In this document: one piece after another, positions 12,382 through 27,646 of the stretch
How positions within the stretch are numbered: position 1 is the stretch's first letter
Layout of the letters: every line of letters starts with the position of its first letter
DNA from: a virus
IMG/VR virus record: IMGVR_UViG_3300037672_001301
Location: 1 to 29,835 of that record
Direction: 5' to 3' (one strand)
DNA length: 29,835 bases
Notes under the pieces: model-generated
Database searches by the model: none
What the model saw: the letters and a program-made list of their open reading frames with translations, nothing else
What the model was told of the DNA's origin: nothing
Translations under genes and position numbers: made by a program

Positions 12382-12840
12382 ATGACAAAACAGGTTCAAT
12401 TTAGAAAGGGAACCACAGCTGAACACTTTAACTTCACTGGGGCCCTTGCTGAAATTACTGTTGATACGGATAAAAATGTTGCTGTTGTCCATGACGGTGT
12501 AACTCCTGGCGGTTTTGAACTTTCAAGATCAAGATGGATTTATGTCGCTGGAGATACTACTACTGGTACTAACCAGAAATATACGGTTGACTCCACATAT
12601 ACTCCTACAGGATTGAATGTTACTTTACCAACTCCTCGTGCAGTTGGTGACTGGGTTTGGATTGAAGATTTTGGTAATTTTATGAGTATCAATCCAGTAA
12701 GCGTTATCTCGGATAAGTCTTTTGAGAACGGTCATCTCGTAAGAGAAAGTTCACCTTTTATTATGGATGTATCTGGAGCGTCTGTAACATTCATTTGGAA
12801 TGGAAGTCTTTGGAAAGTGTTCAACAATAGAGGCAGTTAA
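12382..12840 (+). CDS. Small tail-fibre protein with Mtd_N-like domain
   Basis: This is a 152-residue protein. Residues 4-45 (VQFRKGTTAEHFNFTGALAE, then ITVDTDKNVAVVHDG and TPGGFEL) match the N-terminal domain of the major tropism determinant type (Mtd_N), a short beta-prism-like module found at the attachment end of many phage fibres and head fibres. The remaining hundred residues form a beta-rich domain ending FIWNGSLWKVFNNRGS, a common fibre C-terminus that I take to be an oligomerising or glycan-facing module (inference). A TATAAATA late promoter precedes it, and the ribosome binding site is poor. The start overlaps a five-codon open reading frame (12368-12385) in an ATGA arrangement. Confidence 0.75.
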   Translation: MTKQVQFRKGTTAEHFNFTGALAEITVDTDKNVAVVHDGVTPGGFELSRSRWIYVAGDTTTGTNQKYTVDSTYTPTGLNVTLPTPRAVGDWVWIEDFGNFMSINPVSVISDKSFENGHLVRESSPFIMDVSGASVTFIWNGSLWKVFNNRGS

Positions 12841-13265: not shown

Positions 13266-16200
13266 ATGGCTGAGTTTAGACTTGGAAGAGTAAAATTCAA
13301 CTGGACGGGTAATTGGGATACTTCCAAATCTTACCTCATTGACGATATCGCCAAGTTTGGTGGCAATACTTATGTAGCGGTCGCAAACCATACTTCCACT
13401 GGAAGCACTGCTAACTTCTACACCGATCTCGGTAATTGGAATCTTCATATTGAGGGTCTAGAGAATAGGGGTAGTTGGTCACCAGATACGTATTACCGAG
13501 TAAACGATCTCGTCACCTTCGGTAACGTAGTATATCGTGTTACAGTTGCACATACTTCTGTCGGTACATTTATCGACGAGACGAAGGTTGTTCAGTATGT
13601 CGCAGGATTTAATTCAGAAGGCGAATGGCAAAACACCACAGAGTATCAGCAAGGGGACGTTGTTAATTACAACGGGTCTTCCTATGTTGCTATTACTACT
13701 TCTGCTGCTGGATTTAACCCACCAGAATATATCGGTTTAGGAACAGGTAGCAAGTGGAATGTTCTTTCCGATGGTCTTGCTGGCGCTGCAGTAACATATA
13801 CAGAAGGCACCTATTATAGAGGTGACATGGTTCTGTTTGGTGGTAATTCTTATCGCCACAAACTTGGCATTACTACTAATGTTTCTCCTGTTCAAGCTGG
13901 ACTGGGAACCGTTGGAGATGCTCAGTATAGTGGAACCGCCGTCTGGGATCTTCTGGTCAAAGGCATTAGCTTTGTTGGTAATTTCTCCACAACATTCGCA
14001 TATCATCCAGGTCATGTCGTTAGATATGGATCTAACTCATATGTCTCAGTTGGTGCTTCTTTCGTAAATATTAATCCAATTGCTGGTGTAGGAACATATT
14101 GGGAAACATTGGCTGCTGGTGACTCAGCTGCTGCTCTTAATACTAAGGGTGATATTCTTACTTATAACGGTGGTCCTGCTAGAATCGGTATTGGTTCTAC
14201 TGGATATGCACTTGCAGTTCAAAGTGATGGAGTTCCTGGATACGAAATTGTTGGTAACCAGACAAGAATCTATTACGTTGACTCCGAAGATGGCCTAGAT
14301 GCCAACAACGGTCTTGCACCTAACCTTGCATTTAAGACAATCAAGGCGGCTTGTGCTGCTGCACGTCCTGATAACAATATCACTGACTTCCAGTATACTG
14401 CTGCAACTGGTGTTGCAACTATCACATCTCCTGGTCACGGTCTGGCAAACGTTGGTACGTTTGTTCAGTTGGCTGAGATTGAATTTGAATGTCTGTCTGG
14501 TGGTAATGTCTTCAATATCTTGGGCATGACATACAACAAGGCTGTTGGTCTTGCAACTATTACTGCTATTGGTCTTGGTGCTGCTCCAGAAATTGGAATT
14601 GGTGCTACTGTTAGATTGAGAAATCTTGGTATTTCATTCACTGGTAATGCAAACTTTGAACACCAGTTCTCCCGTGCAGAGTCAGATGCCCTCATCACTG
14701 GTGGTGACTATATTCATAACTTTGTGGCTGCTACTTCGGGTGCAGTTAACGTTGTAACAGGAAGTCTTTCTGGATCCCAGTTAACTCCAACAAATGCTGT
14801 TTATACGGCAACTAGTGGTGAGTTGGAGATCACTGTTGGTTCTCACGGTTTGTCGATTAGTGACACTATCAGCTTTGATGCCAACTCAATGACATTCACT
14901 TGTCAAATGGACGGTGGTAGTTCCAATAAGACATATCCAAGAACAACTGACCCCGCATACGGTGTCAATCTCTCGATCAATGCAATTACTGCAAACACTT
15001 TCACAGTTAACGTTGGACCTTCTCCTATCGTTAACTTCCAAGTTGGTGGTGCAACATATAACCAGGTAACTGGCGATATCGTAATGGATGTCGGTGTTCA
15101 TCAACTTGATATTGGTACATCGGTCAAACTTCTTACCGAAGGCATCGTCTTCAAGTGTTCCATGGACGGTTACCTAACCGACCACGCATATCCAAGAGCA
15201 ACTGCTGGTGATGGTTCTCCTGATCCTGCATACAATACTGCTCTGTCGATTACTGCTGCAACAACTACTACCATCACGGTTAATGTTGGTACTGCAAGTT
15301 CTTCTCAGACAATTACTGGTAAGTTCCCTGCAGTTCATACTCAGGCATCTACTTTCCAGTTCCCAGTTCAGGCAGTTCCCGATAACAACTCTATTGTAGT
15401 TAACGTCGGTGTTTCTAATACTGATTATCTCTATGTTTCTGGTGGTACTGCGTTCGTTGGTGTTACAACAACGGTTTATCCCGATAAGGTCTCTAAGTCT
15501 TACTTTGAGGTTCTTCAGGTTATTGATGCCAATAGAATTAGAGCTAACGTTGGTATCTCCACAATCAATCACACATATGTGAGAGGTGGTCATCTAACTG
15601 ATCTAACTCCTGCTATTCTGAAACTGTCTGCTTCACAGTTCTATGAGCAACTGCCAATCAAGGTTCCTCCTTTTACCTCGATTATCGGTAACTCACTAAG
15701 AGGTACTCAGGTTCTACCTGCTGCTGGTTTCTCTGACGATTCTGTAACTCCTAATAACAGATCTCAGATGTTCCAGTTGTCTGATGCTACTACCCTTCAG
15801 GCAATGTCCATGAAGGGAATGGAAGGATTTATGTATGATCCTAACGTACCTTTCGTACTAGATAATAGTAACATTAGAACTGGTCTTGGAACAACTGCTG
15901 CTGGTGTTGTTTGTGCCTTTAACCCAGATTCCCCAATCAATAATAAGTCTCCTTACGTTAAGGATTGTACTGTATTCTCCGATAACGCAAGTGATTTCGG
16001 TCGTCACGGTGGTGGTGCTGTTGGTGTATTCGCTGATGGTGGTGTCCATTCCGAGGGTGCGAAATCAATTGTCTTTGACTCCTTCACCCAGGTATCTTCC
16101 GATGGTGCTGGATATATCCTAGACAAGAGTGCAATCTCCGAGATTGTTTCTTGCTTCACCTACTACTGTAAGTGGGGATACTACTCTGGTGGCGGATCTA

Positions 16201-17699
16201 GAATTCGTTCCGTTGGTGGTAACAACTCCTATGGTGATTACGGTGTTATTGCATCTGGATTCTCCACAGACGAAAGCCCAAGAACATCAAGAGTCTTTGG
16301 TTCTCTGATGGAAGTAAACGGTCCAACTAAGGCTGGTACTCTGGCTATTGGTGCTACCATGTTTGGTGCAACCTCTGGTGCTCGTGGATGGTTCATTAAC
16401 GATCAAACCGCTGCAGACAGAATTTACTTCAAGTATCATCCTGGTTATGGTTCAGTTGGTCTTGGAACCACTGGATTCGTAGATGGTGAGATTATCTGGT
16501 TCGGTGCTGGCGGCGACAGTCAGGCTGGTGTTGGTTCTATCACAGTTTCTGGTGTTACTTCCTCTATCGGCGGACAAAGAGGAACAATCCTTGAGGTTGA
16601 CAATATTTCTTCAACACTCTTAGTTGGTGACGCACTTGGATTCTCTACAACCTCTTATGGTGATGACAATCTCTTCTATATCATCAATACAGTCACGAAT
16701 ATCTCTGCTGCTTCCACATACACGTATTACACACCTAGTGGTATTGCAACAGTAACATATCAAGATCGTGCTACGCTGACAATTTCTCCAGAGAAGTCAA
16801 GTGGTACATGGGATACCCGAGAGGTAACTGGTGCAGGTTCTACACTATCTGTTAGAACCCTCTTCTCACAGTGTCGCCTAACAGGACATGACTTCCTGAG
16901 TGTTGGTACTGGTAACAAGGCAGAAACCAATTATCCCGATGTTGATCAAACTCAGATTATTCAGGGTAATGAGACTAATATCTTCGGTCCTGGTAAGGTA
17001 TTCTTTGTTTCCACTGACCAAGGTGGTAACTTCAGAGTCGGTCAATTCTTCTCCGTTGATCAGTTGACTGGTCGTGCAACCTTGGACGCTTCTGCGTTCA
17101 ACCTGTCTGGTTTGACTGAACTGAGACTGGGTGCAATCGGTGGTCAAATTGGTGAGGCAATCAACGAATTCTCCTCGGATGAATTCATGTCTGGTCAGTC
17201 CAATACTGCATGTCCTACTGAGGGTGCAGTTGCTGGATTCCTCCGTCATGGTGCGATGGGCGTCAAGGCAATGACTCCACCAGTTGGTACTACTGCCGAA
17301 AGACCTGGTGGGCTCGATGAAGAGTTCAACACTGGTGCTTTGAGATTCAACACTGATCTTGGTTCTATTGAATTCTATAACGGATCTATTTGGACACAAC
17401 CTGGACTTAAGACCTACTCAACGGTATCGAGTTCTGGCGCGGTTGCGGCGGGTCAGGTCTACTTTGTTAACACCACTGGTGGTACTCTAACTCTGACTCT
17501 ACCTGCATCCCCCGCACTGGGAGATACCATTAGATTCTATGATGTTGCCAACACCTATGATTCTAATGCGTTGGTCGTTGGACGTAATGGGAAGAAGATT
17601 CAGGGTGATGATTCTGACATGACGGTCAATCTTGAAGGGGCTTCATTTGAACTCGCCTTCTCGGGTGATACCTACGGTTGGAGATTGTTCTCCGTCTGA
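13266..17699 (+). CDS. Long tail-fibre protein with CBM-like repeats and beta-helix region
   Basis: This is a 1477-residue protein. A strong ribosome binding site (AAAAGGAG, 13253-13260) fixes the start. Residues about 12-283 hold five repeats of the chitinase-type carbohydrate-binding pattern W-x-x-x-x-x-Y-x-x-G/D-D-x-V-x-F/Y-G/N-x-x-Y (for example YQQGDVVNYNGSSYVA), each closing with a Trp. Near residue 340 IYYVDSEDGLDANNG then AFKTIKAAC resembles the start of pectate-lyase-like beta-helix domains. Residues about 380-700 contain degenerate repeats of the form Y-x-x-x-T-G-x-x-x-x-x-V-x-x-H-x-L with FTCQMDG and YPR phrases. The C-terminus has GALRFNTDLGSIEFYNGSIW, common in cyanophage fibres. 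A role in host-surface recognition is likely; no catalytic residues can be named. Confidence 0.8.
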   Translation: MAEFRLGRVKFNWTGNWDTSKSYLIDDIAKFGGNTYVAVANHTSTGSTANFYTDLGNWNLHIEGLENRGSWSPDTYYRVNDLVTFGNVVYRVTVAHTSVGTFIDETKVVQYVAGFNSEGEWQNTTEYQQGDVVNYNGSSYVAITTSAAGFNPPEYIGLGTGSKWNVLSDGLAGAAVTYTEGTYYRGDMVLFGGNSYRHKLGITTNVSPVQAGLGTVGDAQYSGTAVWDLLVKGISFVGNFSTTFAYHPGHVVRYGSNSYVSVGASFVNINPIAGVGTYWETLAAGDSAAALNTKGDILTYNGGPARIGIGSTGYALAVQSDGVPGYEIVGNQTRIYYVDSEDGLDANNGLAPNLAFKTIKAACAAARPDNNITDFQYTAATGVATITSPGHGLANVGTFVQLAEIEFECLSGGNVFNILGMTYNKAVGLATITAIGLGAAPEIGIGATVRLRNLGISFTGNANFEHQFSRAESDALITGGDYIHNFVAATSGAVNVVTGSLSGSQLTPTNAVYTATSGELEITVGSHGLSISDTISFDANSMTFTCQMDGGSSNKTYPRTTDPAYGVNLSINAITANTFTVNVGPSPIVNFQVGGATYNQVTGDIVMDVGVHQLDIGTSVKLLTEGIVFKCSMDGYLTDHAYPRATAGDGSPDPAYNTALSITAATTTTITVNVGTASSSQTITGKFPAVHTQASTFQFPVQAVPDNNSIVVNVGVSNTDYLYVSGGTAFVGVTTTVYPDKVSKSYFEVLQVIDANRIRANVGISTINHTYVRGGHLTDLTPAILKLSASQFYEQLPIKVPPFTSIIGNSLRGTQVLPAAGFSDDSVTPNNRSQMFQLSDATTLQAMSMKGMEGFMYDPNVPFVLDNSNIRTGLGTTAAGVVCAFNPDSPINNKSPYVKDCTVFSDNASDFGRHGGGAVGVFADGGVHSEGAKSIVFDSFTQVSSDGAGYILDKSAISEIVSCFTYYCKWGYYSGGGSRIRSVGGNNSYGDYGVIASGFSTDESPRTSRVFGSLMEVNGPTKAGTLAIGATMFGATSGARGWFINDQTAADRIYFKYHPGYGSVGLGTTGFVDGEIIWFGAGGDSQAGVGSITVSGVTSSIGGQRGTILEVDNISSTLLVGDALGFSTTSYGDDNLFYIINTVTNISAASTYTYYTPSGIATVTYQDRATLTISPEKSSGTWDTREVTGAGSTLSVRTLFSQCRLTGHDFLSVGTGNKAETNYPDVDQTQIIQGNETNIFGPGKVFFVSTDQGGNFRVGQFFSVDQLTGRATLDASAFNLSGLTELRLGAIGGQIGEAINEFSSDEFMSGQSNTACPTEGAVAGFLRHGAMGVKAMTPPVGTTAERPGGLDEEFNTGALRFNTDLGSIEFYNGSIWTQPGLKTYSTVSSSGAVAAGQVYFVNTTGGTLTLTLPASPALGDTIRFYDVANTYDSNALVVGRNGKKIQGDDSDMTVNLEGASFELAFSGDTYGWRLFSV
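13299..14115 (+). repeat. Five tandem CBM-like protein repeats
   Basis: Within the 1477-aa fibre, five units of about 45-60 codons carry a conserved W (or aromatic), Y, D-x-V, Y/F-G and Y. Cores are YLIDDIAKFGGNTYVAV, YRVNDLVTFGNVVYRVT, YQQGDVVNYNGSSYVAI, YYRGDMVLFGGNSYRHK and YHPGHVVRYGSNSYVSV. The spacing and aromatic pattern match small chitin/cellulose-binding modules. Confidence 0.7.
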
Positions 17700-17740: not shown

Positions 17741-17748
17741 TCTAAATA
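17741..17748 (+). promoter_or_regulatory. Possible late promoter variant (TCTAAATA)
   Basis: TCTAAATA is one base off TATAAATA and lies 20 bases before the start at 17769, in the only noncoding gap between the long fibre gene and the first Cys-rich gene. Confidence 0.35.
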
Positions 17749-17768: not shown

Positions 17769-18551
17769 ATGGCCAACTACAGATCATATAAAAAAGTAAC
17801 TGCGGCCCAGGTTCCAGATGGGTCCATCACCGTTGATAAACTTGCTAGTGGTGTTGGACCGAGCTGGAACGTAAAAACAGTTTACGGAGATCCATCATCA
17901 ATGACTTCTGGTTGCTGTTGTCTTTGGACTGTTCCAACTGGAGTTGGTAAAATTACTTGGGAACTATGGGGTGCTGGTGGTAATGGACATGGTGCATGTT
18001 CTTGCAACAGATGTCATCACTACAAAGGTGCTGGCGGTGGAAGTTACAACACCAAGACAATTTCTACAACAGGAAGTTGTCAATATACAGTATGTGCTGC
18101 TGGCGTCTATAGATGCTGTTCTAGAGAATGTACTGGATGTTACGGATGTTCTTCATATGTAAATGGATATAATCTAAGTAACTTCTGTGCAGTGGGTGGT
18201 GGTAGAGGAGAAGCCAATACTGATTGGTCTAACCTCTGTGCATCTGTCCATCACACCTGTATGCAACCAGGAACATATGATGGGGACTTTGCAGTAAACC
18301 CTCATTGGCCAGGATTCAGTGGTCAATGGAACTGTCATTGTGGTCTGTCGAATACACAAACTTGCAGTGGTGGAGCCGCACTAATTGGAATTGGTAATAA
18401 AACGTACTCCAGTCACTGTTGGATGCGTTGTGGTTGCTGGATCGCACCATATGGTGCTGGTGGCCAAGGCGCAATGACTTCATATTGTGAAAGATGCTGC
18501 GGTCAAGGCGGTACTGGTGGATCTGGAATAGTACGTATCACATACATGTAA
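17769..18551 (+). CDS. Gly/Cys-rich fibre-tip-like protein, paralog 1 of 3
   Basis: This is a 260-residue protein with 25 Cys by hand count. Residues 1-30 (NYRSYKKVTAAQVPDGSITV) are a short fibre-type lead. From residue ~47 it has SGCCCLWTVPTGV then ELWGAGGNGHGACSCNRC. The W-x-V-P-x-G-V-x-K-x-x-x-E-L-W-G-A-G-G pattern is that of Gly-rich domains seen in phage fibre tips. Cys clusters follow: YRCCSRECTGCYGC, HCWMRCGCW and SYCERCCGQGGTGG. No signal peptide or membrane segment is present. AGGA at 17759-17762 serves as ribosome binding site. I infer a distal adhesin or fibre component stabilised by disulfides outside the cell or by metal; the function is not established. Thirteen bases separate it from paralog 2. 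Confidence 0.7.
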   Translation: MANYRSYKKVTAAQVPDGSITVDKLASGVGPSWNVKTVYGDPSSMTSGCCCLWTVPTGVGKITWELWGAGGNGHGACSCNRCHHYKGAGGGSYNTKTISTTGSCQYTVCAAGVYRCCSRECTGCYGCSSYVNGYNLSNFCAVGGGRGEANTDWSNLCASVHHTCMQPGTYDGDFAVNPHWPGFSGQWNCHCGLSNTQTCSGGAALIGIGNKTYSSHCWMRCGCWIAPYGAGGQGAMTSYCERCCGQGGTGGSGIVRITYM

Positions 18552-18564
18552 TCAAGGGGAATCA

Positions 18565-19362
18565 ATGGCCGACTACACAAGTTATAAAAAAATTAGTGGA
18601 GATCAACTAGATAGTGGAATCTTAGGATCTGCAAAATTTGCTTCATCCCCAACTTCAACATTTGGAGTAAAGTGGATCTATGGAACTGCGTGCCGATGTT
18701 CACCTGGATGTTGCTGCGCTTGGGTTGTTCCTACTGGAGTTAAGAAACTCTGGATCCAGGCTTGGGGTGCTGGTGGTAATGGAAATGGTGCATGTTCATG
18801 TAGTAGATGTCATCACTACAGAGGTGCTGGCGGTGGACTGTATAACAGTGTGATGTTAGATACCGCCGCTGGATGTACATATTCTGTATGTGCAGGTGGT
18901 GTGTATCCATGTCTTTCTAGAGAGTGTGCTGGATGTAACGGATGTACTTCATACGTTAATGGTTATAATTTAAGTAACTTCTGTGCATACGGTGGATCTT
19001 GTGGTCACGCCAACACTAGTTGGTCAACTGCATGTAATGCAGAATGGCACTGCTGTGTGGCTCCTACATCTAATGGTGGTCAGTTTGGTATGGGTAACCT
19101 ACGAGACACTTGGTCTACTGGTGGACATGATACTTACCGTGGTTGGTGTCATTGTTGGGTTCAGATGCAAACACCAACTTCTGCTCCATTCATTGGAACT
19201 GATGTTCATATGTCAAATAGAGAGTGTTGGATCCGTTGTGGTTGCTGGATTGTTCCTTATGGTCATGGTGGTCAGGGCGCACACTCTTCATATTGTGGTT
19301 CAAGTTGCTGCGGACAAGGCGGTACTGGTGGCGGCGGACTCGTCAAAATCACTTACTTCTGA
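18565..19362 (+). CDS. Gly/Cys-rich fibre-tip-like protein, paralog 2 of 3
   Basis: This is a 265-residue protein with 27 Cys by hand count. It has the same plan as its neighbours: a short lead (DYTSYKKISGDQLDSG), then a CRCSPGCCCAWVVPTGV segment and AWGAGGNGNGACSCSRCHHY. YPCLSRECAGCNGC, SYVNGYNLSNFCAYGG and the closing ECWIRCGCWIVPYGHGGQG then SYCGSSCCGQGGTGGGG follow. It is the most diverged copy in the lead and in the middle (residues 150-210), with extra Cys before the CCC cluster. The ribosome binding site AGGGGA is close to the start. It ends two bases into a late-promoter-like motif that precedes paralog 3. The functional inference is as for paralog 1; the variable middle would be the place for receptor specificity. 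Confidence 0.7.
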   Translation: MADYTSYKKISGDQLDSGILGSAKFASSPTSTFGVKWIYGTACRCSPGCCCAWVVPTGVKKLWIQAWGAGGNGNGACSCSRCHHYRGAGGGLYNSVMLDTAAGCTYSVCAGGVYPCLSRECAGCNGCTSYVNGYNLSNFCAYGGSCGHANTSWSTACNAEWHCCVAPTSNGGQFGMGNLRDTWSTGGHDTYRGWCHCWVQMQTPTSAPFIGTDVHMSNRECWIRCGCWIVPYGHGGQGAHSSYCGSSCCGQGGTGGGGLVKITYF

Positions 19363-19368
19363 TAAATA
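19361..19368 (+). promoter_or_regulatory. Possible T4-type late promoter (GATAAATA)
   Basis: GATAAATA starts inside the stop codon of paralog 2 and lies 21 bases before the start of paralog 3, so the third copy may have its own late transcript. Confidence 0.45.
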
Positions 19369-19388
19369 ACTATTAAATAGGACTCCAA

Positions 19389-20186
19389 ATGGCCAATTAC
19401 GCTTCTTATAAACAGATTAGTAACTCCCAAATTGTTAATGGGTCTATTACTAACACTCAGCTAGAGAGTGGAGCATTCTCTAACTGGAATGTTAAGTGGA
19501 TCTATGGGGATCCTGGAACATTGTCATCTGGTTGCTGTTGTCTTTGGACTGTTCCAACTGGAGTCCAAAAAATGTACGTGGAACTCTGGGGCGCTGGAGG
19601 AAATGGACATGGAACATGTTCATGTAACAGATGTTATAACTGGCATGGAGCTCAGGGTGGATACTATAATGCAAAAACTCTTTCCGTAACACCAACAAAT
19701 CAATATACAGTATGTGCTGGTGGTGTTTATCGTTGTTGTTCTAGAGAATGTGTTGGATGTGATGGATGTGTTTCATATATGAATGGAACTGGATTATCTA
19801 ACTTCTGTGCAATGGGTGGCACTAGAGGTTGTGCAACTAACTCTTGGTCCACAACTTGTAGTTCCACTATGGCTAAGTGTTGTATGGAACCTGGTGCTCA
19901 TGGAGGAGACTTTGGAATGGGTAACCATGGTGGTGGTACTAGAAAAGGATACGGTGGTGATGGTATGTACTGTCATTGTTTCTTCAATGAGACTAGATCT
20001 ACAGGAGCTCCATTTTTGGGTACTATGGCAGTGGCTAATACGGTTAGACATTGTTGGGTCCGTTGTGGTTGCTGGAGAGCTCCATATGGACATGGTGGTC
20101 AGGGTGCGATCACATCTTACTGTGAAAGATGTTGCGGACAAGGTGGAACTGGTGGCGGTGGTCTTGTTAAAATTAGTTATATGTAA
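19389..20186 (+). CDS. Gly/Cys-rich fibre-tip-like protein, paralog 3 of 3
   Basis: This is a 265-residue protein with 25 Cys by hand count. It is closer to paralog 1 than to paralog 2: it shares SGCCCLWTVPTGV, ELWGAGGNGHGTCSCNRC, YRCCSREC and SYCERCCGQGGTGG. The central region differs from both (KCCMEPGAHGGDFGMGNHGG and YCHCFFNETRSTGAP). The lead (NYASYKQISNSQIVNGSITN) is again fibre-like. AGGA (19379-19382) is the ribosome binding site. Directly after its stop, a different frame reads a tight Cys cluster and then a terminator follows. The next gene resembles a tail fibre assembly chaperone, an order like gp37-gp38 of T-even phages, which fits a fibre-tip role. Confidence 0.7.
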   Translation: MANYASYKQISNSQIVNGSITNTQLESGAFSNWNVKWIYGDPGTLSSGCCCLWTVPTGVQKMYVELWGAGGNGHGTCSCNRCYNWHGAQGGYYNAKTLSVTPTNQYTVCAGGVYRCCSRECVGCDGCVSYMNGTGLSNFCAMGGTRGCATNSWSTTCSSTMAKCCMEPGAHGGDFGMGNHGGGTRKGYGGDGMYCHCFFNETRSTGAPFLGTMAVANTVRHCWVRCGCWRAPYGHGGQGAITSYCERCCGQGGTGGGGLVKISYM

Positions 20187-20187
20187 T

Positions 20188-20265
20188 TCTGGATGTTGTG
20201 GGGCAGGATGTCCCGATTGTCCATTTAGACCTCGGAAAGGGGTCTTTTTTTATGTTTTATTATAA
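20188..20265 (+). other. Short Cys-cluster reading after paralog 3 (possible tiny gene or frameshift tail)
   Basis: In the +1 frame relative to paralog 3, bases 20188 onward read SGCCGAGCPDCPFRPRKG and stop at 20263-20265. C-C-G-x-G-C-x-x-C-P is a recognisable small-protein Cys motif. No ATG/GTG start with a ribosome binding site is visible directly before it (the codon there is ATA), and the terminator hairpin overlaps its second half, so it may be a remnant. Confidence 0.25.
20227..20251 (+). terminator. Rho-independent terminator
   Basis: A seven-pair stem (AGACCTC 20227-20233 with GGGGTCT 20239-20245, including one T-G pair) has a five-base loop, and the T-run extends to 20251. It closes the Cys-rich triplet and is followed by a new late promoter. 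Confidence 0.8.
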
Positions 20266-20302: not shown

Positions 20303-21073
20303 ATGGCAACAGAAATTATTTCTCACGATTGGAACATGCCTGTTCCAAACGCTTTTCTAAGAGATCACTCATATTCCGAAGGCAAATCAAGAGCTGTCAC
20401 TTACGATGGTCCTGACAAAATTTGGCTCCAAATTGGTGCCGATGGGACAGAAAAGTACGGTCCGTTAACCGAAGATGACCTTGCTGATGGGAGACCAATC
20501 CCAGCCGATGTAACTCAAATGTTTGAAGTGGATTGCACAGCGTATCCACTAATTTGTCAACTGAGGGGACCAGTCATCGATGAAAAAGAAGAAACACGAG
20601 ACGTTGATGATGACGTTGCTCATCCAGATTGTCCCGATATGACTGCTCAAGGGTACAGACAATTTAAGTATAATCAGCATTTGTTTATCGAAGATCTTTA
20701 TGACGCATCAACTGTAAAAGTTGTTGATGGAGTTCCAACAATACATGCATTTACTGTTCAGGAAAAACTCCTTGGCAGACCAACTGATTTGACCTGGGAT
20801 GAGATTAGATCTCATAGAAATTCAATTCTTGATCAGACTGATGGTCAAATTGCAGATGACATGCCCGAGGACATGAAGAATTCTTGGAAAGCGTATCGTC
20901 AGAAGTTGAGAGATCTGCCAACTGAATTGGAAACTGCTGGTGTTTCACCAAATATAGCATACTACATGTTCCCAGACCAACCATTTTATACTGCACCTCC
21001 ATCTGACCCAGAAGCACCTGCAGATGCAACTGCCGATTGGGCCCCTCCAGAGAGTGGTGTTATTAACGGTTGA
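20303..21073 (+). CDS. Tail (fibre) assembly chaperone-like protein
   Basis: This is a 256-residue protein. Residues about 160-205 (LTWDEIRSHRNSILDQTDGQ, later NSWKAYRQKLRDLP) match the phage tail assembly chaperone pattern R-x-x-L-L-x-x-x-D ... W-x-x-Y-R-x-x-L-R-D-x-P (Phage_tail_APC / Caudo_TAP type). The N-terminal 150 residues are acidic and include YGPLTEDDLADGRPIP, typical of nothing I can name. The C-terminus is Pro/Asp/Ala-rich (PPSDPEAPADATADWAPP), probably disordered. Such proteins help fold or trimerise tail fibres and often sit right after the fibre genes, as here. It has its own late promoter and a hairpin terminator 33 bases after the stop. Confidence 0.7.
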   Translation: MATEIISHDWNMPVPNAFLRDHSYSEGKSRAVTYDGPDKIWLQIGADGTEKYGPLTEDDLADGRPIPADVTQMFEVDCTAYPLICQLRGPVIDEKEETRDVDDDVAHPDCPDMTAQGYRQFKYNQHLFIEDLYDASTVKVVDGVPTIHAFTVQEKLLGRPTDLTWDEIRSHRNSILDQTDGQIADDMPEDMKNSWKAYRQKLRDLPTELETAGVSPNIAYYMFPDQPFYTAPPSDPEAPADATADWAPPESGVING

Positions 21074-23019: not shown

Positions 23020-24816
23020 ATGTCACAATGGATTGCGGCTATTGCCCGAGGTCATAACTCAGGGCTCTGTCTTCTCAAAGATGGTGAAATTGTATTATCA
23101 ATAGAAGAAGAACGACTTTCTAGGAACAAGTATGATGGAGGTCCATATGCGTGTATGACTAGAATTTTGGACTTCACAGATACTCTTGATTATCTCGTTA
23201 TCGCACATACTCAACCACTGAGTGAGGCTGGTCAATGTGATTTCAGTGGAGATCCCATTTATGTTGCATTGGCAAGAAAGTTGGGACTAATCGATAGGAA
23301 AGCAAATCCACATCAACACCCACAAGTTATTGATTTGAGTGCAACTCACCATAAACTTCACGCAGCATGTGCCTTCTATAGGTCTGGATTTAGTCGTGCT
23401 GCAGCCGTTGTTGTTGATGGTGCAGGTACTTTTATTCCCATGAATATTAATGGGGAAAATGAAATGACTTGGGAATTGGAAACTCTATTTAATTGTGAGT
23501 ATCCATCAGAATTTAAGACAATATATAAACATCAAGGCGGAAGAGGTCCATGGACATCTGTTCGATTTGAGGAGTTTAGTAGTAAAAGGGAAGGTGAGGA
23601 AGGAACTCATGAAATGATTCTTGATGATACTGCTGGTATTACTAAGGCATATGAAGCTGTAACACAGTATTGTGGGTGGTCTCCTATTGAAGCTGGTAAA
23701 ACTATGGGTCTATTCCCCTATGGAAACCCCAATGATGATATTCCCGATGTGTATACCGATTATAATGGTGCCTCTGAGTGGAAGACATCCAATAGAGACC
23801 TCATTACACCAACGTATCCTAACGGTGCCCTAGTCAATCAGGGGCGGTTTAAATACCTTAAGACTGACTATGACTATGAAGGTGATATGACCCTCCTACA
23901 GAACCGTAGAGACATGGCATACGCTATTCAAGTAGAGTCTCAACAGATGGTTCTGGATCTCATTCGCAAAGTTGTAGGTATGACTGGTCAAACTAATGTA
24001 GTATTGACTGGTGGATATGCACTAAATTGTGTTGCTAACTATTGGTATCTTGAACAACTAAAAGATGAAGGTATTAATCTATTTGTAGAACCTGTAAGTA
24101 ATGATGCTGGTACTGCAATTGGAGCTGCACTTCTCCAATACCATAGAGTAACTAAAGATGCACAAGTCCGTGAACCACTAAAAGATCTTTATACTGGATT
24201 TGAATACATGTATTCGACTGATCAAATTGTAGATACTGCAGATAAGTATAACTCCACAAGAGTTTTTGAATCTACAAACAAAGATGTAATTGATTTAATT
24301 ACCAATAAAAATATTGTTGCTATCTTCCAAGGTAGATCCGAGGCTGGTCCCAGAGCACTAGGTAACAGGTCCATTCTTTATGATCCTCGTGATCCAGATG
24401 GAAAGGATTTTGTCAATAAAGTAAAAAATCGTGAATACTTCCGACCTTTTGCGGGATCAATCCTTAAAGAACATGTTCATGAGTGGTTTGATCTTCGTGG
24501 CATGGACGAAACCCCGTTCATGATGTATGCTGTTAAATGTCAGGATGGGATTGAAGAAAAAATTCCTGCAATTATTCATGTTGATGGTACTTGTAGGATT
24601 CAAACAGTCACTGAAGATCAAAATAAAAATTATTATGATTTGATTAAAGAATTTTATGAAGCTACTGGTTGCCCTATTGTCTTCAACACTTCTTTTAATT
24701 TGGGGGGCGAGCCTCTCGTTGAAACACTTGATGATGCTTGCAGAACCCTTTCTGAATCTGATATTGAATATCTCTACTTACCCGAACATGGGTTGATGAT
24801 TGAGGCTAAAAATTAA
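23020..24816 (+). CDS. NodU/CmcH-family carbamoyltransferase, full length
   Basis: This 598-residue protein has both domains of the family. The N-terminal Kae1-like (ASKHA) half has GHNSGLCLLKDG near residue 11, EEERLSR at 30-36, the metal-site segment THHKLHAACAFYRSGF at ~109, VVVDGAG at ~130 and VLTGGYALNCVANYWYL at ~328. The C-terminal YrdC-like half has GRSEAGPRALGNRSIL near 438 and NTSFNLGGEPLV near 556. Relatives (NodU, TobZ, CmcH) carbamoylate hydroxyls of sugars, using carbamoyl phosphate and ATP through a carbamoyl-adenylate. GAGG before the ATG is the ribosome binding site. The stop overlaps the next start (TAATG). A decorating step on the sugar made by this cassette is the likely role. 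Confidence 0.9.
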   Translation: MSQWIAAIARGHNSGLCLLKDGEIVLSIEEERLSRNKYDGGPYACMTRILDFTDTLDYLVIAHTQPLSEAGQCDFSGDPIYVALARKLGLIDRKANPHQHPQVIDLSATHHKLHAACAFYRSGFSRAAAVVVDGAGTFIPMNINGENEMTWELETLFNCEYPSEFKTIYKHQGGRGPWTSVRFEEFSSKREGEEGTHEMILDDTAGITKAYEAVTQYCGWSPIEAGKTMGLFPYGNPNDDIPDVYTDYNGASEWKTSNRDLITPTYPNGALVNQGRFKYLKTDYDYEGDMTLLQNRRDMAYAIQVESQQMVLDLIRKVVGMTGQTNVVLTGGYALNCVANYWYLEQLKDEGINLFVEPVSNDAGTAIGAALLQYHRVTKDAQVREPLKDLYTGFEYMYSTDQIVDTADKYNSTRVFESTNKDVIDLITNKNIVAIFQGRSEAGPRALGNRSILYDPRDPDGKDFVNKVKNREYFRPFAGSILKEHVHEWFDLRGMDETPFMMYAVKCQDGIEEKIPAIIHVDGTCRIQTVTEDQNKNYYDLIKEFYEATGCPIVFNTSFNLGGEPLVETLDDACRTLSESDIEYLYLPEHGLMIEAKN

Positions 24817-25223
24817 TGAAGACTGTATTTGTAAATGGCACGTTTGATATTTTACATCCTGGACATATAGAACTATTCCGAGTAGCGAGATCTCTGGGTG
24901 ATCGTGTCATTGTCGCTACAGATAGTGATGTGAAGATCAAAAAAGATAAAGGTCAAACTAAACCCATAAATGATCTTTGTTATAGAATATCAATGCTCGA
25001 ATCAATCAAGTATATTGATGCTGTCCACTATTTCAACGATCGAAAGGGATTGGAAGATCTTATCCGAGTTTATAAACCAGATATTCTCCTCTTAGGAAAT
25101 GACTGGGAAAATGGTGATGTTGTTGGAAAAGATATTGTCAAAGACGTTAGATTCTTGCCAAGAGTTGGAGATTATTCTTCAAGCTCAATTATTAAAAAAA
25201 TTCTAATTAATAACTTGGACTGA
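24816..25223 (+). CDS. RfaE2-type (HldE C-terminal-domain-like) heptose nucleotidyltransferase
   Basis: This is a 135-residue stand-alone cytidylyltransferase-fold protein. The nucleotide-binding signature is NGTFDILHPGH with H14-x-G-H17. KDKGQTKPINDLCYRISML matches the K-G-x-x-R-P-x-x-x-x-x-x-R segment of the ADP-transferase half of HldE, and YSSSSIIKKI corresponds to its C-S-T-T-x-I-I-x-K-I end. The known reaction joins ATP and heptose-1-phosphate to give ADP-heptose. Related glycerol-3-phosphate and phosphoethanolamine transferases share the fold, but the following RfaE1-type kinase and the HldD-type epimerase make the heptose assignment much the best. It is coupled on both sides by one-base overlaps. 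Confidence 0.8.
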   Translation: MKTVFVNGTFDILHPGHIELFRVARSLGDRVIVATDSDVKIKKDKGQTKPINDLCYRISMLESIKYIDAVHYFNDRKGLEDLIRVYKPDILLLGNDWENGDVVGKDIVKDVRFLPRVGDYSSSSIIKKILINNLD

Positions 25224-25999
25224 TGGAATGTAATATATTAGTTATTGGGGACTCATGTGATGATGAATACATCTATGGAGATTGTTCTAGGTTAAACCCA
25301 GAAGGACCTATTCCTGTTCTAGACAAGACATGTACAGAAATAACACCTGGAATGGCATCAAATGTCAATGCTAATTTAAAATCTTTTGGTATCAGAACAA
25401 ATCTGATTACCCAGAAAGAAAAAATTAAAAAAACACGATTTGTTGATAAGAAAAGTAATTATCAATTACTCAGAGTTGATACTACTCCTGAGGTAACTCC
25501 ACTAAGTGCTTCTCAAATAAAAATGGCATTTATGCATAGTCAATATGATGCACTAGTAATATCAGACTATAATAAAGGTTTTCTTACGGATGAATCATTA
25601 CGTATTATCTGCACATATTTTAAAGGACCAATTTTTATTGACACAAAGAAAACTAGATTATTTCAACAATCTAATGTTTTCTTCAAGATAAACAAAAAAG
25701 AATATGATTTACTTGATCGTGAATTTATGCCTCATGATACTAATTTAATTGTAACTTTAGGATCAAATGGATGTAAGTGGAGTGGTATTCATTTCCTACC
25801 AAGAAAAGTTAATGTATTTGATGTATGTGGTGCTGGTGATACCTTTCTTTCTGCCTTAGTGGTTGAGTTTATTCGCACAAAAAATATGCAGAAGTCTATT
25901 GATTTTGCAAATAAAGCAGCTTCTATTTCCGTAGAAAACTCGGGAACATATAAACTAACTAAAAATGACATTGTAAGAATTTATAATGAACGAGTTTAA
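25223..25999 (+). CDS. RfaE1-type (HldE N-terminal-domain-like) heptose-7-phosphate kinase, PfkB family
   Basis: This is a 258-residue protein. VIGDSCDDEYIYGDCSRLNP followed by EGPIPVLD copies the opening of HldE/RfaE1 (G-D-x-x-x-D-x-Y-x-x-G-x-x-x-R-x-x-P-E-x-P-V-P). PGMASNVNANLKSFG is the altered P-G-G-A-A-N-V-A segment, QLLRVD the substrate-side strand and SDYNKGFL the S-D-Y-x-K-G-x-L motif. FDVCGAGDTF carries the PfkB signature with catalytic Asp206. It is shorter than typical RfaE1 domains (about 315 residues). In the known pathway the kinase turns D-glycero-D-manno-heptose 7-phosphate into the 1,7-bisphosphate. It overlaps the transferase by one base (TGATG) and the next gene by 14. Confidence 0.8.
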   Translation: MECNILVIGDSCDDEYIYGDCSRLNPEGPIPVLDKTCTEITPGMASNVNANLKSFGIRTNLITQKEKIKKTRFVDKKSNYQLLRVDTTPEVTPLSASQIKMAFMHSQYDALVISDYNKGFLTDESLRIICTYFKGPIFIDTKKTRLFQQSNVFFKINKKEYDLLDREFMPHDTNLIVTLGSNGCKWSGIHFLPRKVNVFDVCGAGDTFLSALVVEFIRTKNMQKSIDFANKAASISVENSGTYKLTKNDIVRIYNERV

Positions 26000-26531
26000 G
26001 AAACCCAATCCAGTATTTTGGATGCCTTTTTTCATAGAAGAAATTGATATTAGTAAATTAGAATTCAAAGAAGAACCAGAATATACTCCAACTTTTATTT
26101 CTCGTACTCCAACTACAATGGGGGAAGATGAACTTACTCAAGAGTCATACAATTATCTTGGTAGGATTCTTTGGGAGTGTATAGGTCAATATACGGAGAA
26201 ACCATTTTATATTGGTTCTGTTTGGCGTAACAAGTATGTGAAAACAGACTGGCAAGATCCACATATTCATTCTGGAGCTCAATGGAGTTTTGTGATTTAT
26301 GTGGATGTTGAGGAATCTAAGACTGTTTTTCTTTCCCCAAGTAGACACAATCAAATGAATCAATGGGGACATCTAGGTCATGCGTTTCCTTTAGACTTTT
26401 CTCCAAAAATTTCTCCTGGAAATATTATAATTTTCCCATCATTCATTGAACACTTTGTTCCCCCTGGGAATGAAGGCATAACTATATCAGGTAACATTTA
26501 TTATGATCAGCCTCCTGGAGGACCAGTATGA
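25986..26531 (+). CDS. 2OG-Fe(II) oxygenase-like protein (2OG-FeII_Oxy_5 type)
   Basis: This is a 181-residue protein starting inside the end of the kinase gene. VWRNKYVKTDWQDPHIHSGA then WSFVIYVDVEE gives the double-stranded beta-helix core with H93-x-H95. SPGNIIIFPSFIEHFVPPG gives the distal His156, and ITISGNIYY the final strand. This order (W-x-N-x-Y ... H-x-H-x-x-x-x-x-S-x-V-x-Y-V ... G-x-x-x-x-F-P-S-x-x-x-H-x-V-x-P ... S-x-N) is that of small 2-oxoglutarate oxygenases common in marine phages. The second metal ligand is His instead of the usual Asp, as in some of the family. The substrate is unknown. ATGA overlap with the next gene. Confidence 0.65.
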   Translation: MNEFKKPNPVFWMPFFIEEIDISKLEFKEEPEYTPTFISRTPTTMGEDELTQESYNYLGRILWECIGQYTEKPFYIGSVWRNKYVKTDWQDPHIHSGAQWSFVIYVDVEESKTVFLSPSRHNQMNQWGHLGHAFPLDFSPKISPGNIIIFPSFIEHFVPPGNEGITISGNIYYDQPPGGPV

Positions 26532-27646
26532 AGCAAGTTGGATTTCACTTATCCCATAACTCCTCAGTATCAGTTCTTTCTGAAGATGGGGACATTGAAC
26601 TTTTCCTGGAAGAAGAAAGATTGTCTAGATTAAAATATGATAACGATCCATTTCATGCATGTAACATGGTTCTTGGTGGACTTACCATGGATGAGATTGA
26701 AAAATATGAAGTAGCAACATCTGCATTAATATCTAAAGACAAGCTGGGAGTAAGTACATTAGATCGTAGTAGTGATATGTTAATGATGTATGTTTCTAAA
26801 TCATTAAAACTTCTACCACATGAACAAAACTCTTTTAAGTATGAAATAGTCAAAGAAAAATTTGAAAAGTTTTTTGATCATCACTTATTTCATGCTTATT
26901 GTGGATTCTATAATTCTGGATTTGATGATGCAGTTGTAGTTGTGGTTGATGGTATGGGAAACTTCATTTCTCCTGCAGAAGATAGGCATGAGGTTGTTTC
27001 CATATTCGATGCATCTTATCCATGTAATATGAATTTTTTAGGAGGGATGTCTACACCCTCTTATGATAGTTGTGATGAATCTGAACATAAAGGTGAGTGG
27101 ACATGTGGAATTGGTATGATATACTCCGCAGTATCCTCATATATGGGTTTTGGTGGACTTGGGGCTGGAAAAGTAATGGGTCTTGCTTCATACGGTAAAG
27201 AAGATCCCAATATTAGATCTTTCCTTTCTGATGGATTTAATGTAGATTCAAATCTTTTTTATAGGTCTAAGTATGGATGTAATTTTATTCCATATGATTA
27301 CTTACCTCATCATAGAGAAGCTGAAAATACTAAGAATCACTTTGAAAAATTATCTAACCTTGCTTGGAGACTTCAAGAAGATTTTCAGACTCATATGTTA
27401 AAAATTTTATTGGACGCTCTTGCAATATCGAAACGTAAAAATATTATTTTAACTGGTGGATGTGCATTAAACTGTTCTGCAAATTATTGGTATTTGGATA
27501 AGTTGCCAAAAGATGTTAAACTATATGTGGAACCTATTAGTAGTGATGCTGGAATTAGTATTGGACTATCTAAGGTTCAACATTATTCCCAAACTGGTTC
27601 CATGAAAAAATATCCACTTAAAAACTTATACTTGGGCCCCGAATGA
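26528..27646 (+). CDS. NodU-family protein lacking the C-terminal YrdC-like domain
   Basis: This is a 372-residue paralog of the full-length carbamoyltransferase in the same cassette, equivalent to its Kae1-like half only. It keeps HLSHNSSVSVLSEDG, EEERLSRLKYD, the His-rich metal segment DHHLFHAYCGFYNSGF near residue 117, VVVVDGMGNF, GLGAGKVMGLASYGK, LTGGCALNCSANYWYL near 310 and VEPISSDAG. The last residues (YPLKNLYLGPE) line up with EPLKDLYTGFE of the full-length protein, exactly where its second domain begins. No remnant of that domain follows, because the next gene starts four bases before this stop. By analogy with TobZ it lacks the part that makes carbamoyl-adenylate, so it may work with the full-length enzyme or be non-catalytic. 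Confidence 0.8.
   Translation: MKQVGFHLSHNSSVSVLSEDGDIELFLEEERLSRLKYDNDPFHACNMVLGGLTMDEIEKYEVATSALISKDKLGVSTLDRSSDMLMMYVSKSLKLLPHEQNSFKYEIVKEKFEKFFDHHLFHAYCGFYNSGFDDAVVVVVDGMGNFISPAEDRHEVVSIFDASYPCNMNFLGGMSTPSYDSCDESEHKGEWTCGIGMIYSAVSSYMGFGGLGAGKVMGLASYGKEDPNIRSFLSDGFNVDSNLFYRSKYGCNFIPYDYLPHHREAENTKNHFEKLSNLAWRLQEDFQTHMLKILLDALAISKRKNIILTGGCALNCSANYWYLDKLPKDVKLYVEPISSDAGISIGLSKVQHYSQTGSMKKYPLKNLYLGPE

Follow-up and report, generated by a model that had tools for sequence, protein, structure and literature searches.

The Cys-rich triplet and its gene neighbourhood

The window, by which we mean the whole stretch of 29,835 nucleotides that was analysed (IMG/VR record IMGVR_UViG_3300037672_001301), holds three adjacent genes for proteins with ~10% Cys, here called ORFs A, B, and C. 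This virus of marine cyanobacteria is related to the Synechococcus phages Sf-FS3 and S-SSM7 (Lipsvirus), and DNA identity to Sf-FS3 is 83% across the last 20 kb of the window. The features at the locus are as follows.

13266..17699, + strand: 1477-aa long tail-fibre-like protein, upstream of the triplet (phrog_9851 tail fiber protein, E reported as 0; Pfam CBM_5_12 modules)
17742..17748, + strand: CTAAATA motif resembling a T4-type late promoter, 20 bases before the ORF A start
17769..18551, + strand: ORF A, 260 aa, 25 Cys; predicted Cys-rich, TNF-like/glycine-rich fibre-tip protein
18565..19362, + strand: ORF B, 265 aa, 27 Cys; paralogue of ORF A
19389..20186, + strand: ORF C, 265 aa, 25 Cys; paralogue of ORF A
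20227..20245, + strand: predicted intrinsic terminator directly after ORF C
20303..21073, + strand: putative tail-fibre-assembly chaperone (Pfam Phage_tail_APC, E 2.4e-9; phrog_9740)

The CTAAATA motif resembles late promoters of T4-like cyanophages and is a putative promoter. The triplet had been singled out in a sequence-only reading of the window, and the coordinates, lengths, and Cys counts given there proved exact. The Cys clusters which that reading described are common to the three aligned proteins, which are 53-61% identical to each other and contain 17-18.5% Gly. The other genes of the window average 0.86% Cys (20 genes checked), and ORFs A-C stand at about ten times this background. 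At the window rate the binomial probability of the Cys count is 1e-18 to 1e-20 per ORF, and chance composition was rejected as the source of the Cys richness. All three proteins match the PHROG 4205 profile over their full length, with E values of 7e-54, 1e-49, and 2e-55 for A, B, and C. PHROG 4205 and PHROG 35878 are the sequence families that contain these proteins; both are annotated as of unknown function, and their library entries record neither a function nor a Cys feature. The Pfam Gly_rich_2 model (PF21722) matches ORF A with an E value of 1.5e-8 (35.4 bits against a curated cut-off of 24.3), while ORF B scores 16.1 bits and ORF C gives no match; 66 of 120 relatives match this model at E below 0.01.

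Predicted fold and putative fibre-tip role

Structure prediction, which the sequence-only reading had proposed as a check, was run with AlphaFold2 on ORF A alone using 120 sequences, and ORFs B and C were placed by sequence family. The ORF A model (pLDDT 79.6, pTM 0.75) is a TNF-like sandwich with glycine-rich loops, and its N-terminal 30 residues (pLDDT 50-66) form short helices only. In this predicted model loops contain 17 of the 25 Cys, the other 8 belonging to strands or bridges. The top match among solved structures was the tail fibre gp24 of cyanophage Pam3 (7YPX; Z 16.9, rmsd 2.7, 186 residues), followed by the Bxb1 tail tip (Z 12.5) and then ALK/LTK (Z 8-10); unrelated structures appeared near Z 4, well below these. 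Among viral models the top matches were S-CAM3 and P-SSM2 members of the triplet's own family. A lower-ranked match, Syn9 gp38, is one of the glycine-rich proteins with 0.8-2.5% Cys that sit downstream of a putative fibre in Syn9. No relative turned up when solved structures were searched by sequence, either with ORF A or with the 120-member profile.

The Pam3 fibre protein gp24 forms a trimer. Besides a helical N-terminal portion it has a TNF-like domain and a glycine-rich domain, the latter put forward as the receptor binder, and its folding needs the phage-encoded chaperone gp25, the pair forming a 3:3 complex (PMC9608196). Similar to gp24/gp25 (PDB 7YPX, 7YFW), the triplet combines a predicted TNF-like sandwich and glycine-rich loops with an adjoining phage-encoded gene of the fibre-assembly type, whose chaperone role is putative. 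The C-terminal part of the protein from this adjoining gene also matches several tail-fibre-assembly PHROGs, and its AlphaFold2 model (pLDDT 89.8) is beta in the N-terminal part and helical in the C-terminal part; a fold search with this model gave no match to Pam3 gp25. Pam3 gp24 comes from one gene and forms a homotrimer with a long N-terminal helical shaft and a loop domain of 39% Gly, with Cys not discussed in its description (PMC9608196), whereas here three genes encode proteins with a short N-terminus and a loop region of 19-21% Gly and ~12% Cys. Because of this loop composition, we regard the triplet as a fold relative that would work like Pam3 gp24 and not as a plain member of its kind. 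The Gly-rich scaffold noted in the sequence-only reading is therefore right in outline, with loop Gly well short of the Pam3 value and Cys seeming to stand in partly for Gly.

That reading had also likened the proteins to T-even gp38 adhesins. The likeness holds in part: lattices of glycine-rich loops are of a related kind in both, and the T-even/S16 gp38 adhesin (PDB 6F45) likewise places such a lattice at the fibre tip, where the loop tips recognise the receptor. However, the S16 gp38 lattice has three layers on a beta-helix and is attached to gp37 (PMC9608196), the body predicted here is TNF-like as in Pam3 gp24 and ALK/LTK, and 6F45 was absent from the matches listed for the ORF A model. 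The ALK/LTK glycine-rich domains (TNF-like/GRD) have the same TNF-like plus glycine-rich arrangement, but they belong to animal receptors, and sequence kinship is limited to one weak match to Pfam ALK_LTK_GRD by one family member. Since the predicted fold is joined by a position between the long tail fibre and the putative chaperone, the triplet proteins are most likely adhesins at the fibre tip that have the fold of Pam3 gp24 and carry extra Cys within the glycine-rich loops. The adhesin role put forward in the sequence-only reading agrees with this fold, with the gene neighbourhood, and with the conserved family. We hold the gp24-type fold, as predicted, and the tip position and receptor binding that we infer from it, to be highly probable.

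Conservation of the Cys residues

A scan of viral contigs returned 195 relatives, and 80 loci were retained. Across 193 unique close relatives, 20 alignment columns hold Cys in at least 98.5% of the sequences, so the Cys positions are conserved in homologues, as the sequence-only reading would lead one to expect. No other residue type in this set is as conserved as Cys, whose majority columns exceed those of every other residue on average. Both TGT and TGC are present at each of the 20 conserved columns, which implies that Cys is under purifying selection; a coding artefact was rejected on the same grounds. Most Cys columns never switch to Ser, Ala, or Gly within the close relatives.

The corresponding position in S-CAM1, S-CAM3, and P-SSM2 is occupied by very divergent proteins that are ~26-33% identical and still contain 8-12% Cys. 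Further scans extended the superfamily to 651 unique proteins with 6.1-13% Cys (median 9.9%) and none lower, a range in which low-Cys members would be under-sampled as several of the search motifs included Cys. A Cys-masked tblastn search matched S-SSM7 and Sf-FS3 types only and could therefore not reach low-Cys homologues.

Some loci depart from the common arrangement. The Prochlorococcus phage P-SSM2 (L003, 4716-7582) has two Cys-rich relatives of 36 Cys each around a 225-aa gene that lacks Cys and may be a further assembly helper, and this two-copy order with the Cys-free gene is repeated in many viral contigs. The sole locus with four tandem Cys-rich copies is at 1616-5902 of L159. A narrow search of genome contigs gave two distant homologues (L436, L437) on contigs binned as one marine Neomarinimicrobiota MAG, which are perhaps virus sequence.

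Chemistry of the Cys residues

We reconstructed Cys gain and loss on a tree of the 651 proteins. Co-change at p<1e-3 was found for 5 of 1689 Cys column pairs and for 29 of 61510 pairs of other residues, a Cys excess with a Fisher P of 0.002. The strongest coupled pair (p 4e-7) corresponds to ORF A positions 54 and 105, which fall in predicted strands and are occupied by Thr and Gln in ORF A itself; the best coupled pairs existing in ORF A are C109-C217 and C164-C191. The coupling is of modest strength, with distant relatives contributing most of it, and opposite changes, with gain in one column and loss in another, are likewise raised for Cys. The close family alone gives too weak a signal, most of its Cys being invariant. 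Among spacings the vicinal CC is the most enriched, at 2-fold, while CxxC is near background at 1.16-fold. Only one His column and one Glu column reach >90% conservation as potential non-Cys ligands. Of 66 distinct triplets, 42 have an odd Cys sum, so not all Cys can pair in a 1:1:1 tip and some would be free or otherwise bound.

Disulfide cross-linking and metal binding had both been suggested for these Cys in the sequence-only reading. The paired gains and losses, the enrichment of vicinal CC, and the scarcity of CxxC and of other metal ligands lead us to lean towards disulfides, and hardening by disulfides is plausible so long as it is not taken to mean full pairing, which the odd sums oppose. 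There is a precedent in Agrobacterium phage Milano, whose virion, short tail fibre included, is stabilised by many disulfides (PMC10811340). The Milano disulfides are in other proteins and sites (sheath, baseplate, fibre, and spike) and were seen by cryo-EM (PMC10811340), whereas those of the triplet are inferred from sequence. We rate the chance that disulfides are the main role of the triplet Cys as even, and the chance that this holds together with the gp24-type fold and tip role as just under that.

A tip in which the Cys clusters carry Zn, Fe, or Fe-S sites, which would stiffen it or exploit host metal uptake, is unlikely. It would account for ~20 invariant Cys in clusters that include CxC and CxxC, the odd totals are compatible with metal sites plus free thiols, and the folding of phage proteins in a reducing cytoplasm also counts in its favour; yet the spacing and ligand patterns given above speak against it, and the coupled Cys changes come mostly in twos, not fours. 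Zinc knuckles and metallothioneins, by comparison, are marked by recurrent CxxC/CxC pairs with His or acidic partners. We give similarly little credence to unpaired Cys acting as a small filler that replaces Gly or Ala in a tight loop lattice and remains reduced. The combined Gly and Cys content of the loop region, 31-33%, set beside the 39% Gly reported for Pam3, fits such a role, as do the odd Cys totals, but most Cys columns never accept Ser, Ala, or Gly in close relatives, and pair coupling of Cys columns exceeds that of other residues.

An obligate three-gene unit

Exactly three copies are present in all 81 untruncated S-SSM7-type loci and in 75 of 77 S-CAM1-type loci. P-SSM2-type loci mostly have two, and a strict one-each trimer therefore cannot be general. 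ORFs A, B, and C represent separate lineages, of which B is monophyletic (support 0.984) and A and C are nearly, not fully, so. A terminator follows ORF C in 60 of 63 distinct relatives, and none was found after A or B (83 loci). The sequence TAAATA occurs within 90 bp upstream, at 25-29 bases, in 21 of the 63 distinct relatives, against a background of ~0.04 per 90 bp. The fixed three copies, the distinct lineages, and the terminator only after C suggest that A, B, and C are an obligate co-expressed set, and they are our reason for proposing a mixed A:B:C tip. That the tip is such a mixed trimer we consider possible, at a little less than an even chance.

Three independent homotrimeric adhesins with different receptors and no mixed tip, an arrangement compatible with any Cys chemistry, come close behind as a possibility, though also one that we would not bet on. 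Pam3 gp24 is itself a homotrimer from a single gene (PMC9608196), and A, B, and C differ more in their N-terminal segments (36-42% identity) than in their Cys domains (59-63%). This arrangement is harder to reconcile with a copy number that does not change in the 81 untruncated close loci and with a single terminator placed after C only. A role outside the virion, in which a Cys-rich product of late infection would act in or on the host, is very improbable: the literature search found no virion proteomics on these exact proteins, but the tail-fibre fold and the location between fibre and chaperone genes argue against such a role.

Proposed explanation and its meaning

We propose that a Lipsvirus-like cyanomyophage would use the three genes to build the distal, receptor-binding tip of its tail fibre. 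As in Pam3 gp24, glycine-rich loops would be stacked at the distal end of each protein, beyond a TNF-like beta-sandwich and a short N-terminal segment for attachment. With ~12% Cys in the loop region, many of these residues would probably form disulfides after lysis that lock loops and strands together, and these bonds may do the work done by poly-glycine packing in Pam3. The paralogues would be an obligate set from one transcript, most likely in one mixed A:B:C tip, and folding would be helped by the putative chaperone encoded next door. The three-chain head of C1q has a comparable plan to an obligate mixed trimer of TNF-like subunits. The fullest form of the proposal, in which such a trimer forms many of its disulfides only after leaving the reducing cytoplasm and represents an oxidation-matured adhesin common to many cyanomyophages, is speculative, and we consider it doubtful as a whole.

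No paper on Cys-rich tail proteins of cyanophages was found in the open-licence literature, and the Cys-laced fibre-tip triplet appears not to have been described previously. How T4-like cyanophages recognise their hosts is poorly understood, with tail-tip genes mostly annotated as hypothetical, and Lipsvirus, Anaposvirus, Charybdisvirus, Salacisavirus, and their relatives gain a concrete fibre-tip candidate. Should the Cys prove to be disulfide-bonded, a stable glycine-rich adhesin would be reached by a second route, and oxidative maturation after lysis would have an example. A single mixed tip shared by the three paralogues would be a departure from the usual homotrimeric fibre.

Other genes near the triplet

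Several further genes surround the locus. The small protein encoded at 12382-12840 carries the N-terminal domain of a major tropism determinant (Pfam Mtd_N, E 2.5e-12). Following the putative chaperone, the product of 21104-21772 matches DUF6445 and, weakly, 2OG-Fe(II) oxygenase, and its Sf-FS3 counterpart is annotated as prolyl 4-hydroxylase-like. Two carbamoyltransferase-like proteins are encoded at 23020-24816 and 26528-27646, with a carbamoyltransferase annotated at the matching place in Sf-FS3. The adjoining genes at 24816-25999 are cytidylyltransferase-like and PfkB-kinase-like according to the Sf-FS3 annotation, resembling a split ADP-heptose synthesis pair. S-SSM7 has been reported to carry a large lipopolysaccharide gene cluster (PMC3037559).
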